Below are positions 1,114 through 8,058 of a stretch of DNA of 64,000 bases, one piece after another. How positions within the stretch are numbered: the stretch's first letter is position 1; the number at the start of each line of letters is the position of its first letter. The notes beneath the pieces are model-generated. The model saw nothing but the letters and a program-made list of their open reading frames with translations, had not been told where the DNA came from and did no database searches. A program made the position numbers and the translations under genes. This stretch comes from Nodosilinea sp. FACHB-131 (GTDB taxonomy: Bacteria; Cyanobacteriota; Cyanobacteriia; Phormidesmidales; Phormidesmidaceae), in NCBI RefSeq assembly GCF_014695395.1, contig NZ_JACJOF010000030.1:1-64000 (forward strand). The letters are read 5' to 3'.

Positions 1114-1440
1114 CTAAACAAAGCCATACATAGAGATAAAGCACGCCCCGTTGACGAGGGCAGTCAGCACAGCGGCCATAATCACTCCTTTAGCCATGGC
1201 GGGACGCCCTCGCCGCCGCAGGGTAATCACTAACGGAATCACGTAGAGCAGCTGCCAAAAGAAGAACCCTGCTGCCCCAATGACCCAAGGAATGGCAAAC
1301 GCGTAGTCACCGATGCCAATGACGGCCAACAACAAACCCAAGAGAAATATTAGTGCCCCTGCCACGGCATGGCAGCCCAACAGCAGCAGCATACCTTTGA
1401 CAATTTCTAGACCTTCATTTTGGGAATTGGGATTGGTCAT
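1114..1440 (-). CDS. Small three-helix membrane protein, paralogue of the next gene upstream
   Basis: I do not recognise a named family. The 108-residue protein has three hydrophobic segments (about residues 15-42, 47-73 and 83-105) and a basic RRRGRPAMAKG loop between the last two. It is clearly a paralogue of the protein at 1566-1949: both begin MTNP, share GMLLLLGCHA, FFWQLLYV or LFWQLLYV, LRRRGR and AMAKGV. It is the last gene of the run lgt-like, radical SAM, membrane protein A, membrane protein B, all on the minus strand, with a gap of 125 bases before it. The invariant GCH and RRRGR motifs may mark a functional site, but no function is assigned. The context suggests a role with the lipid-related proteins upstream (inference). 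Confidence 0.75.
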   Translation of the reverse strand: MTNPNSQNEGLEIVKGMLLLLGCHAVAGALIFLLGLLLAVIGIGDYAFAIPWVIGAAGFFFWQLLYVIPLVITLRRRGRPAMAKGVIMAAVLTALVNGACFISMYGFV

Positions 1441-1565
1441 AGCGTGGGGAGGTTTAATGCCGGGCTTGTGGGCAGCGAGGCGATTCGCTAAGCGATCCGT
1501 CCCGGAATCGCAGAACCCCGCATTTTGAGCAATGCGCAGCCCGCTAGTGTAAATAATCAGGTGCC

Positions 1566-1949
1566 TTAGGGGGTGGGTTTTCTAAAGTCTAGTGCGTTTC
1601 GTATAAATTCCTGTATCAATCCCAGTATGAATGGATTAGAGACGGAGCAAAGTCCGTTGAGCAGGGCGGTAAGCACAGCCATAATAACGACGCCTTTTGC
1701 CATCGCAGTTCGGCCTCGCCGCCTGAGAATAGTGATTAACGGAACGACGTAGAGCAACTGCCAAAACAGAAACCCTACTAACCCAACCACAATAGGTGCT
1801 AGTGAGCTGTAGTTACCAAAGTGCGACTCTGTCACCATACCGATGAAAAAAATCAGCACCATTGCAAGGGCGTGACAGCCCAGCAGCAGCAGCATGCCGC
1901 TGGAGATTTCTGAGCCTTCGCGTGGGGGGGTGGGGCTAGGGTTGGTCAT
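1566..1949 (-). CDS. Small three-helix membrane protein, translationally coupled to the radical SAM gene
   Basis: The 127-residue protein has three hydrophobic segments (about residues 18-40, 46-72 and 83-104), a basic RRRGRTAMAKG loop and a C-terminal tail of about 20 residues that its paralogue at 1114-1440 lacks. Its ATG overlaps the stop codon of the radical SAM gene as ATGA, the usual sign of translational coupling, so the two proteins are probably made together. The conserved GMLLLLGCHA segment places a Cys-His pair inside the first helix. No family name is recognised. Duplication of this gene inside the operon suggests that a homo- or hetero-oligomer is useful to the system (inference). 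Confidence 0.8.
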   Translation of the reverse strand: MTNPSPTPPREGSEISSGMLLLLGCHALAMVLIFFIGMVTESHFGNYSSLAPIVVGLVGFLFWQLLYVVPLITILRRRGRTAMAKGVVIMAVLTALLNGLCSVSNPFILGLIQEFIRNALDFRKPTP

Positions 1950-3382
1950 GGCGCTGGAACCGGGTTAGCGGCTTGAACCTCGGCCAGTTTAGCGGCCCCT
2001 GCGCTGCCCTCCCGGTAAAACAGGTTGTAGGTGTCAAAGGGAATGATGCGGCCATCGGGGTGGACGATGTGAATGCACGATCGCTTCACCGATCGCACAT
2101 CGAAGTTATAGGCATCGAGAAACTGCACAATCATAATGCGAAAAATATTTTCGTAGGTGATGCCGCTGGGCACCGCTACCTGGGGCAGACAGCAGAGCAG
2201 CTGCTTTAGCGCATTGGCCGACGACTGCGGGGAGTGGCTGGTAGAAAACAGCTCGAAAATTTTTTGCTTGAGCTGGGGGTCTTGCTCGTAGAGCACCGAG
2301 TTAGGCATCATCTCCACAAAGGTGGGCGTTGAGAACATGCCTGTGAGAGGAATCACCTGACCTTTGACCTTAAGGGCGTAGGCCATTGCCAGCGAGTCGG
2401 GGTGGCAGGGCACCGGCAGAATGTCCTGCGGTTTGAAGTGGGGGCTCTGGTCGAGAATGGCGCGGCGCACCTCGGTGAGGGTGTAGCGATCGCGCCCCGC
2501 CTCAAACCCCTCTAGCCGCCCCGCCGCCTGAATGGGCTGAAACGTCACGCCTCGCACGCACCGTTGGGCCAGAGCGTAGTCAATAATTTTGCCAATTTCG
2601 TGGTCGTTGAGCCCTTTCTTGAGCGTGACCACCAGGGTGGTTGAGAGGTTGAGGTCGTTGAGGCGATCGATTGCCTGCTGCCGTGTAGCGCGCAGATCGG
2701 CCCCTCGCAGTTCGCGCAGGGCTTTTTCCTCAAAGCTGTCGAACTGGAGATAGATTTCAGTGCCGGTTTTGTATTGGGCGAGGCGATCGCAGAAGGCCGC
2801 ATCCTGTGCAATCCTCAGCCCGTTGGTATTGATCATCAAATGCTGGATCGGTCGGGCCTTAACCAGCTCCAGCACTTTAAAGAATTCAGGATGCAGGGTG
2901 GGTTCGCCACCGCTGAGCTGCACCACCTGAGGGCTGCCCTCGTTAGCGACGACTGCATCCAGCATGCGCTCGATCTCGGCGAGGGAGCGGTGGCGGCGGA
3001 GCTGGCTAGCAGCGTTGTGCTCCTCGACACCCGAGTCGGCATAGCAGATGGGGCAGCTCAGGTTGCAGCGATCGGTCAGTTCGATCAGCGTCAGGCAGCT
3101 GTGCTGCTCGTGATCGGGGCAGAGGCCGCAGTCGTAGGGGCAGCCGTAGCGGATGGGGGTGTTGAACTTGAGGGGCATATCCCCCGGTTTGATAAACACC
3201 TGGGTTTGCCGGTAATACTCTTCGTCGTCAGCAATCAGCACCGCTTCGCGCCCGTGGGTAGGGCAGTGCTTGTGCAGATACACGCCCCCGTCTTGGAAAA
3301 CAATTTTGGCCTCGACTTTGCCCAGGCAGCGGGAGCACAGGCTATTGGTGAGAGCGTAGAACAGGTAGGGGCGGGTGGGCAT
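1946..3382 (-). CDS. Radical SAM protein of the tetraether lipid synthase (Tes/MJ0619)-like type
   Basis: The 478-residue protein carries the radical SAM cluster motif CNLSCPIC (C106, C110, C113). Before it lies a second cysteine set, GCPYDCGLCP plus C96 (C81, C85, C88, C96), and an N-terminal zinc-ribbon-like part with C16, C19, C40 and H43. This order, including the DCGLCPDHEQHSCL stretch, is what I know from archaeal Tes (MJ0619 type), which joins lipid alkyl chains carbon to carbon. A GGEPTLHPEFF motif for SAM binding follows. The longest frame starts at 3436, overlapping the Lgt-like gene, but family N-termini fit the ATG at 3382, leaving a 10-base gap. It lies between an Lgt-like gene and membrane-protein genes, so a membrane lipid or lipidated substrate is plausible. 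The true reaction is unknown. Confidence 0.9.
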   Translation of the reverse strand: MPTRPYLFYALTNSLCSRCLGKVEAKIVFQDGGVYLHKHCPTHGREAVLIADDEEYYRQTQVFIKPGDMPLKFNTPIRYGCPYDCGLCPDHEQHSCLTLIELTDRCNLSCPICYADSGVEEHNAASQLRRHRSLAEIERMLDAVVANEGSPQVVQLSGGEPTLHPEFFKVLELVKARPIQHLMINTNGLRIAQDAAFCDRLAQYKTGTEIYLQFDSFEEKALRELRGADLRATRQQAIDRLNDLNLSTTLVVTLKKGLNDHEIGKIIDYALAQRCVRGVTFQPIQAAGRLEGFEAGRDRYTLTEVRRAILDQSPHFKPQDILPVPCHPDSLAMAYALKVKGQVIPLTGMFSTPTFVEMMPNSVLYEQDPQLKQKIFELFSTSHSPQSSANALKQLLCCLPQVAVPSGITYENIFRIMIVQFLDAYNFDVRSVKRSCIHIVHPDGRIIPFDTYNLFYREGSAGAAKLAEVQAANPVPAP

Positions 3383-3392
3383 GGGGACGCTG

Positions 3393-4133
3393 CTACGAAA
3401 CTGTGAGCTGCCGCCGCGAAAGCTGGCGTAACCCATAGGCCACTCCCAGCAGGCAGGCGAGTTGAATAAAGCTTAGCCCTAAGAGCGGCTGAAAGTCGGG
3501 CTTGAGAAAATCAACAGCAAAGCGAAAGCCAAGGTAGCCAACCAGATAGAGCTGAAACAGCCTGCCGCTGGGGATCTCACGTTGACGATACCAGACCAGA
3601 ACTAACCCCAAAATTATCAGGAACGCCACCTCATAGAGCTGAGTAGGGTGGCGGGGCAGGCCGTCGCCAAAGTCGATGCCCCAGGGCAGATCGGTAACGG
3701 TACCGTAGGTGCGATCGCTCAACCCGGTCAAAAAGCACCCTACCCGCCCGATCGCCGTTCCCACCAACAGCGGAAACACAAAGGCATCACCGGTCGACCG
3801 CGTCAGGCCAATCCACTTTTTGGTCAGCTCGACGCCGATTAGCCCGCCCAGTAGCGCTCCCACTACCGTTTTGCCCTGTAAGCCTAGCAGCAGCCACGAT
3901 CGCCAGTTGCTTCCCAACAAATCCACGTGCTGGAGCAGCACCAGCAGCTTTGCCCCCACCAGCGCCCCAATCAGCCCACCTACTACAACCGAACTGCGCT
4001 GGCTCAAGGGAATAGCGTCGCTGCTGACGTTGCGACGCAGCAACCCCATGGCGACCCCGTAAGCCACTACCTCAAACACAAAATGGGGGTGGAGCTTGAA
4101 CGCCCCCACCCCCACATAAACCGGAAACACCAT
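3393..4133 (-). CDS. Lgt-like (prolipoprotein diacylglyceryl transferase fold) membrane protein
   Basis: The 246-residue polytopic membrane protein resembles Lgt, which moves diacylglycerol from phosphatidylglycerol to lipoprotein cysteines. Family marks are GGLIG, GRVGCFLTG and RHPTQLYE, in the right order and spacing. However, positions important in E. coli Lgt differ: the His before GGLIG (H103) is L95, N146 is C133 and E151 is L138, while R143 is kept as R130. The enzyme may therefore use another acceptor or only bind lipid. It is the first gene of the operon leading to the Tes-like radical SAM gene. Whether the genome has a second, canonical lgt cannot be seen here. The family assignment is solid; the activity is doubtful. 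Confidence 0.85.
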   Translation of the reverse strand: MVFPVYVGVGAFKLHPHFVFEVVAYGVAMGLLRRNVSSDAIPLSQRSSVVVGGLIGALVGAKLLVLLQHVDLLGSNWRSWLLLGLQGKTVVGALLGGLIGVELTKKWIGLTRSTGDAFVFPLLVGTAIGRVGCFLTGLSDRTYGTVTDLPWGIDFGDGLPRHPTQLYEVAFLIILGLVLVWYRQREIPSGRLFQLYLVGYLGFRFAVDFLKPDFQPLLGLSFIQLACLLGVAYGLRQLSRRQLTVS

Positions 4134-4213
4134 AGATCGACCCGATTAGGTGGGGTGAACCGCAGTTTAACCCAACAAAGCTCAATTGCTGTTGGGTGCC
4201 GCTGGCGCTCTAC

Positions 4214-7047: not shown

Positions 7048-8058
7048 TTAGAGATTGTTGAGTGAGTTGCGCCAGGTTTTAACTAGGGACCGCAGCGGAT
7101 CGGGCAGCCAAGGATCGTATTGGGGATAGATGGGTAGGCGGGGCTGAAGGTGCCAGCCGGAGGGGGCGATCGCATCCTCCAGCGACTCTAGAGTCGGGTG
7201 GTCATAGTCAGGGTTCACCTCATCCACTGGGCTAATGCCGCCCAGATCCCTCGCGCCTGCGGTTAAACAATCCAGCAGTCCTTGATGACTGACCAAGTTG
7301 GGCGGAATCTGAAGGTTGACGTCTGGGGGCAGATATTCCTTCGCCAGCTGCACGGCTCTCACCAGCGCGGCTTCATCGAGCGCCATTCCTGGCTGAAGCT
7401 GCTGCTGCCCAGGGCTGTGGGGTTGCAAAATGACTTCTTGAATGTGGCCATAGCGAGTTTGGATGGTGGCGATCGCCCGCAGCGACTCTACCCAGTCAGC
7501 CTCACTCTCCCCTAGCCCCAACAGCAGCCCGGTGGTAAAAGGAATCTTTAGCTCTCCGGCCCAGGCCAGCTGTTGCAGCCTCACCTCAGGTCGTTTGCTG
7601 GGGGCATGGCGGTGAACGGTGTCGAGCAGCTTCGGCGTTACCTGCTCGACCATGAGCCCCATCGACACATTGACCTGCCGCAGCTGCGCCATCTCATCGC
7701 GGCTTAGCGGACCGGCGTTGGTGTGGGGCAGCAGCCCGGCTTCTAGAGCCAGCGCACAAATTTGGTAAATGTGGCGAAACCAGTCATCGCGGCGGGGGCT
7801 GTGGGGAGCCACCTCTCCGCTGAGCACCAGCACTTCGCACACCCCCTGACGGCGCAGCGTGGGCAGCTGTTGAGCTACATCTTCTAAACTCAGCCAGGGC
7901 GAATGACCGGGGTCAACCCGAAAGTTGCAGTAGGTGCAGCGGTTGAAGCACTCGTAGGTGGGCACCAAGGTGTAGGCCCGACTGTAGGTCACCACCCGCT
8001 GCAACCCATGCTGTGTCAACAAACCGCTGCGTGAATCAACTGCCCTAGCCTGATCCAT
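7048..8058 (-). CDS. cofG: FO synthase subunit 1 (7,8-didemethyl-8-hydroxy-5-deazariboflavin synthase) CofG
   Basis: CofG is a radical SAM enzyme that, with CofH, builds the deazaflavin FO from tyrosine and 5-amino-6-ribitylaminouracil; in cyanobacteria FO or F420-type deazaflavins serve DNA photolyases as antenna. The cluster motif is CFNRCTYC (CX3CX2C) near residue 37, preceded by the YSRAYTLVPTYE lead-in typical of CofG. SGE, NAGPLS, MGLMVE and LLLGLGES follow in the family order. The 336-residue length is normal. It is a single-gene unit on the minus strand; cofH is not in this window. The start at 8058 begins MDQARAVDS, which may be a few residues too long. Confidence 0.93.
   Translation of the reverse strand: MDQARAVDSRSGLLTQHGLQRVVTYSRAYTLVPTYECFNRCTYCNFRVDPGHSPWLSLEDVAQQLPTLRRQGVCEVLVLSGEVAPHSPRRDDWFRHIYQICALALEAGLLPHTNAGPLSRDEMAQLRQVNVSMGLMVEQVTPKLLDTVHRHAPSKRPEVRLQQLAWAGELKIPFTTGLLLGLGESEADWVESLRAIATIQTRYGHIQEVILQPHSPGQQQLQPGMALDEAALVRAVQLAKEYLPPDVNLQIPPNLVSHQGLLDCLTAGARDLGGISPVDEVNPDYDHPTLESLEDAIAPSGWHLQPRLPIYPQYDPWLPDPLRSLVKTWRNSLNNL

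Follow-up and report, generated by a model that had tools for sequence, protein, structure and literature searches.

What does a bacterium do with a gene cassette that joins a relative of Lgt, a radical S-adenosylmethionine (SAM) enzyme resembling Tes and two small membrane proteins? The question is raised by positions 1114-4133 of a window of Nodosilinea sp. FACHB-131, the window being the whole 64,000-nucleotide stretch of contig NZ_JACJOF010000030.1 that was analysed. Lgt (prolipoprotein diacylglyceryl transferase) lipidates proteins, and Tes (tetraether lipid synthase) of archaea couples the tails of membrane lipids. We consider that the cassette appears to be a route, not described before, by which membrane lipids or proteins anchored by lipids are modified.

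All four open reading frames (ORFs) lie on the minus strand, as the preliminary description had them, and are transcribed in the order Lgt-like protein, radical SAM protein, membrane protein A, membrane protein B. The Lgt-like gene (3393-4133) encodes an integral membrane protein of 246 amino acids (aa), and is followed by the genes for the Tes-like radical SAM enzyme (1946-3382; 478 aa), for membrane protein A (1566-1949; 127 aa; conserved Cys101, codon 1647-1649), recognized by its family profile and alignment, and for its paralogue B (1114-1440; 108 aa; conserved Cys100, codon 1141-1143). The reported 10-base gap between the first two genes holds if the radical SAM gene starts with the ATG at 3382, the point from which its relatives align; an upstream in-frame ATG at 3436 is an alternative start that would overlap the Lgt-like gene. 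The radical SAM stop and the start of membrane protein A share the reported ATGA (1949/1946). The cluster earlier described as one four-gene unit is real, but its fourth gene is not contiguous with the third, 125 bases lying between A and B.

The preliminary description had made its idea depend, in advance, on whether these genes occur together elsewhere, and they do. Scanning 84,980 species yielded at least 558 relatives of the radical SAM query, and all locus counts given here refer to the best 80 of them, which are 57-84% identical to the query and represent no fewer than seven phyla (Cyanobacteriota, Bacillota, Bacteroidota, Acidobacteriota, Planctomycetota, Pseudomonadota, Verrucomicrobiota and others). 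An Lgt-like gene accompanies the radical SAM gene at 75/80, and at two of the five loci without it the sequence ends within 800 bases upstream. Because it is kept in 75 of the 80 loci, the linkage is not due to chance. In an earlier count of 63 Lgt-like/radical SAM pairs, every pair was on the same strand and 45 had a gap of at most 30 bases; the distance matrices of these pairs correlate with r 0.85 (permutation maximum 0.23), a value that partly reflects common species history. Past the three families, no other conserved neighbour stood out at the loci. A quick tree places the photosynthetic cyanobacterial sequences in one supported clade and those of Bacteroidota in another, so the cassette is not merely a recent transfer.

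Among 292 sampled genomes of the cyanobacterial phylum, a close homologue of the radical SAM gene is present in nine and missing from about 97%. Eight of the nine also carry the Lgt-like gene, the sole exception being G004 (L111), in which no Lgt-like gene is detectable; the remaining genomes of the sample contain no close Lgt-like gene, with one weak match in G016 (Fisher test for co-occurrence 8e-15, kinship ignored). The carriers are mostly non-photosynthetic. The cassette is therefore neither linked to thylakoids nor general to cyanobacteria, and the thylakoid connection proposed earlier has to be given up. As a separate observation at loci L018 and L019 (G004 and G018; 1-1441), a gene that by eye resembles homocysteine methyltransferase/methylenetetrahydrofolate reductase lies about 30 bases downstream of the radical SAM gene, on the same strand.

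The radical SAM protein matches the Radical_SAM and Zn_ribbon_HMPTM domains. Its best curated NCBIfam match is TrsS (322 bits, cut-off 490), aligned over almost the full length, and it scores 283 bits with the Tes equivalog (cut-off 450); by curated cut-offs it belongs to neither. In four other family members TrsS likewise ranks above Tes, with Tes scores of 248-298 bits. The closest solved structure is Tes (PDB 7TOL/7TOM). An AlphaFold2 (AF2) model built from 62 relatives, with a mean predicted local distance difference test score (pLDDT) of 84.5, superimposes on 7TOM along the whole fold (Z 45.5, 424 residues, 2.6 Å), and the next-best match, MoaA, reaches Z 19.6. The earlier designation of the protein as Tes-like is sound as to fold and nearly all cofactor ligands, but does not extend to membership of Tes by score.

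The cysteine motifs for which Tes had been named (zinc ribbon, DCGLCP set, CX3CX2C) are all present and are invariant in the 62 relatives. The rubredoxin-type site C16-X2-C19-X20-C40-X2-H43 has the spacing of the Tes site C9X2C12X20C33X2H36, and the [Fe4S4]N ligands C81/C85/C88 (CX3CX2C) with H91 match C73, C77, C80 and a His of Tes (PMC9433317). The radical SAM motif CX3CX2C is formed by C106/C110/C113. Q282, R289, Y211, D215 and R226, equally invariant, align with residues of the 5'-deoxyadenosine (5'-dAH)/SAM site of Tes. The 5'-dAH contacts listed for Tes, which include Arg210, Gln268, Ser271, Tyr195, Asp199 and Arg275 (PMC9433317), are all kept in the cassette family except Ser271, whose counterpart is Q285. 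C326, C397-C398 and C436 are invariant cysteines particular to the family. Two other annotations were discarded: pterin methylase, from the older MJ0619/HMPTM annotation, is uncorroborated even for MJ0619 (PMC9433317), and the anti-phage protein viperin is suggested by a PADLOC pVip match of only 51 bits, which arises from the common radical SAM core.

The Lgt-like protein is, as had been claimed, a true Lgt relative. It scores 103.7 bits with Pfam LGT (cut-off 24.9) and falls under every NCBIfam Lgt equivalog cut-off; an ordinary Lgt is encoded in the same genome (contig C18, 272.8 bits). When 65 relatives are mapped on E. coli Lgt (numbering from MG1655), R130, E168, Y200 and R204, equivalent to E. 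coli R143, E202, Y235 and R239, are kept in 65/65. The position of N146 in the signature motif is occupied by Cys (C133 here), again in 65/65, that of H103 by V, M, L or I, that of E151 mostly by L, I or V, and that of R246 by Lys in 63. Since the core residues are kept and H103, E151 and N146 are replaced, the protein has, to judge from these residues, the fold of a transferase whose site of recognition is altered, and is not a second Lgt. No fusion of the Lgt-like protein to another domain was found, the long ORFs being N-terminal over-extensions. In G030 the Lgt-like gene is divided between two contigs (G030:C58:45316-45837 and G030:C102:8792-9007), one part containing a stop; the break may belong to the gene or to the assembly.

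Small multi-helix membrane proteins, counted by inspection, are present at about 66 of the 80 loci, often as two tandem copies. Their genes directly follow the radical SAM gene, except in Acidobacteriota, where they lie between the radical SAM and Lgt-like genes. The proteins match no convincing Pfam or NCBIfam family, a fold search returned nothing at E <1, and the AF2 model of protein B consists entirely of helical hairpins (mean pLDDT 90.2). Within the cyanobacterial/Bacillota/Planctomycetota family (28 sequences), mean column identity is 24% and the only invariant columns are P69 and C100; the small proteins of Bacteroidota and Acidobacteriota differ in appearance, yet keep the succession of basic loop, hydrophobic stretch and Cys. 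Under a fixed rule, a lipobox-like Cys occurs in 56/70 cassette small proteins against 15/70 control ORFs for small membrane proteins from these loci (Fisher 2e-12, a guide only, as the rule was framed after the pattern had been seen and the loci are related). The positive-inside rule places this Cys at the outer face, the side where Lgt works, and its conservation strengthens the earlier idea of a lipidated carrier. It usually stands near the C-terminus and not behind a cleavable N-terminal signal peptide, and removal of a signal peptide is accordingly not expected; the residue before it (-1) is in many cases I, T, M, V or L, where a lipobox has Gly, Ala or Ser. The family profile matches six of the 292 cyanobacterial-phylum genomes, five of which are cassette carriers; the sixth, G038, has two homologues, both without the Cys, and in this 73% complete genome no close radical SAM or Lgt-like match was found. 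Isolated copies of the small protein, in part frameshifted but with the Cys kept, also occur outside the cassette (L110, 1528-1725; L113, G185:C128).

From the linkage, folds and conserved residues we infer the substrates, the reaction and the order of steps. Our tentative preference is that the Lgt-like protein loads a lipid onto the small-protein Cys and that lipid chains are the substrate of the radical SAM enzyme, the cassette being an old bacterial module for membrane modification. The core of the Lgt-like protein would bind and activate phosphatidylglycerol, its acceptor and selection site having changed, and would put a diacylglyceryl or similar lipid on the conserved Cys at the outer end of a helix, the basic loop, hydrophobic helix and Cys of the small protein mimicking a lipobox. 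The Tes-like enzyme would dock at the inner face and draw the chain ends of the anchored lipid, or of an adjacent phospholipid, into a hydrophobic pocket. There, 5'-deoxyadenosyl-radical chemistry would take place at an unactivated carbon, most simply as C-C coupling via the C-terminal cluster. The product may be a small membrane protein whose lipid anchor is cross-linked or spans the membrane, or else a modified lipid in whose synthesis this protein assists. Cys lipidation is supported because the small genes occur in tandem copies, as substrates do, and because G038, where no cassette was found, encodes homologues without the Cys; chemistry on lipid chains is supported because the fold and ligands of Tes are kept and Tes binds phospholipids. 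A bolder version, a new class of bacterial lipoprotein, appears unlikely. In it, a dedicated Lgt paralogue would lipidate small polytopic membrane proteins on a Cys, usually of the last helix, and the Tes-like enzyme would then cross-link or couple their lipid chains, so that ordinary bacteria, cyanobacteria among them, would have membrane-spanning lipids anchored to protein.

Besides the late framing of the Cys rule, several points weigh against the preferred mechanism. The activities of the cassette members are assigned by inference from sequence. Residues H103, E151 and Y26, essential in E. coli, are replaced in the Lgt-like protein, and E. coli variants of R143, H103 and E151 are inactive (Mao et al., PMC4728403). 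The Cys at C133 is not confined to the cassette, being found also in an unlinked Lgt-like protein in L059. In the radical SAM protein, Val (V419) takes the place of Met439, a labile ligand of the [Fe4S4]C cluster of Tes; this ligand is dispensable in Tes, whose M439A variant is still active in vitro (PMC9433317). Residues 350-405 are modelled with low confidence (pLDDT <50), and they probably lie around the position of the second lipid pocket of Tes. With the active site of Lgt directed outward and the radical SAM enzyme in the cytoplasm, contact between the two would be possible only through the lipid chains. Finally, seven Paenibacillus/Saccharibacillus loci (L058, L062, L064-L067 and L074) have no adjoining small membrane protein, and no protein matching the small-protein family profile was found in G010, G004 or G018; in such cases an acceptor would have to lie elsewhere or be dispensable.

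These last loci bear directly on a possible alternative, a pathway that concerns lipids alone. In it, the radical SAM enzyme would couple or modify phospholipid tails and so produce the membrane-spanning or branched lipids of bacteria, the Lgt-like protein would present phosphatidylglycerol or swap its head group, and the small proteins would be scaffold or lipid-transfer subunits with a structural Cys. We consider it almost as likely as Cys lipidation, given that the small protein is missing from several loci and that Tes takes free phospholipids. The Tes fold and ligands fit it, as does the fact that Tes binds bacterial phospholipids regardless of head group (PMC9433317). Bacterial Tes homologues have also been proposed for branched glycerol dialkyl glycerol tetraethers (PMC8941075), and the cassette is found in the Acidobacteriota Granulicella and Paracidobacterium. 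However, a pathway of lipids alone leaves unexplained why a Cys in lipobox geometry is the best-kept feature of otherwise divergent small proteins, and why these are duplicated in tandem. Moreover, we know of no membrane-spanning lipid in cyanobacteria or Bacteroidota.

The radical SAM enzyme adjoins duplicated small proteins with an invariant Cys, and many radical SAM/SPASM peptide maturases are its distant homologues. The cassette could thus resemble systems for ribosomally synthesized and post-translationally modified peptides, the enzyme modifying the small membrane proteins, for example by a Cys-to-carbon link, and the Lgt-like protein adding a lipid to the product or anchoring it. This is doubtful, as searches of Pfam and NCBIfam found no SPASM domain, the C-terminal domain is Tes-like, and the Cys is predicted outside, away from the cytoplasmic enzyme. 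More doubtful still is a soluble or cofactor substrate, as in the uncharacterised TrsS group, with membrane partners that just localise or export the product: TrsS outscores Tes here and in four other members, but both scores are under cut-off, the strict coupling to an Lgt-fold lipid enzyme favours a lipid, and we know of no substrate of TrsS.

Returning to the preferred reading, in which the small proteins carry the lipid, the window itself records their multiplication. Membrane proteins A and B are 58% identical, and between their genes, at 1507-1559 on the minus strand, lies a degenerate piece of a second copy of the radical SAM gene. It is 75% identical to the radical SAM gene over 53 bp by blastn (E 6e-5; HLIIYTSGLRIAQNAGFCD aligned to HLMINTNGLRIAQDAAFCD) and 45% over 51 aa by tblastn. 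The paralogy together with this remnant points to a probable tandem duplication of a unit made of radical SAM gene and small gene, followed by decay of the second radical SAM copy. A dispersed genomic repeat (1480-1512, no strand assigned) also lies between A and B, with short copies of 91-97% identity at several other sites of the genome, and a second dispersed repeat, at 4147-4200, has copies at several other places. Promoters and terminators show no excess over chance, and an Rfam search gave no match. Elsewhere in the window, an unrelated second radical SAM protein is encoded at 7048-8058 (minus strand); going by its sequence, it is probably CofG-like.

The pathway had been called undescribed. 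In the parts of the open-access literature covered by our search, which did not extend to subscription papers, we found no description of the Lgt-like/radical SAM/small-protein cassette and none that treats the two enzymes as one system. The Tes superfamily itself, including bacterial members whose role is unknown, had already been noted (PMC9433317, PMC8941075; Mss in PMC13274423). The cassette represents one bacterial group of Tes homologues with a strict genetic partner and a candidate acceptor protein, and its hosts include culturable bacteria (Paenibacillus, Hymenobacter, Chitinophaga and Cylindrospermum), which makes the chemistry directly testable. If the proposal is true, radical coupling of lipid tails would reach ordinary bacteria, a second kind of Lgt reaction would exist, and the origins of the membrane-spanning lipids that serve as climate proxies would be affected.

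Compared with known systems, the cassette enzyme is nearest to Tes (GDGT-MAS, MJ0619), with which it shares, besides fold, cluster-ligand spacing and SAM-site residues, the C-terminal motif DAYNFD...C-I-H...RIIPF. It differs from Tes in its low identity (28-34%), its score under the curated cut-off, the change of Met439 to Val and an invariant C397-C398 pair that aligns with no Cys of Tes, as well as in its linkage to an Lgt-like gene and its occurrence in many bacteria that are cultured under aerobic conditions. The PF23545 zinc ribbon of the family was found in only 3/14 control genomes, all archaea. The radical SAM (seleno)protein TrsS (NCBIfam NF045646), the best curated match along nearly the full length, is set apart by the 322 of 490 bits required and by cassette members that, where examined, translate without selenocysteine; the partners in the cassette are, to our knowledge, unlike any described for TrsS. 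Mss, the bacterial membrane-spanning lipid synthase, was compared by description only, and like the cassette protein is proposed to be a Tes-like radical SAM lipid enzyme (PMC13274423). E. coli Lgt (5AZB/5AZC; PMC4728403) has the same Pfam LGT fold and equivalents of the invariant R143, E202, Y235 and R239, whereas the cassette protein has H103, E151 and Y26 replaced, N146 changed to Cys and a shortened periplasmic head. In the MYXO-CTERM/myxosortase system, for which lipidation of a C-terminal Cys by an Lgt-like enzyme has been proposed (PMC11980579), a conserved Cys likewise stands at a C-terminal transmembrane helix; there, however, the Cys precedes the helix and a basic tail follows, giving the opposite topology, and the partner is a protease, with no radical SAM enzyme.

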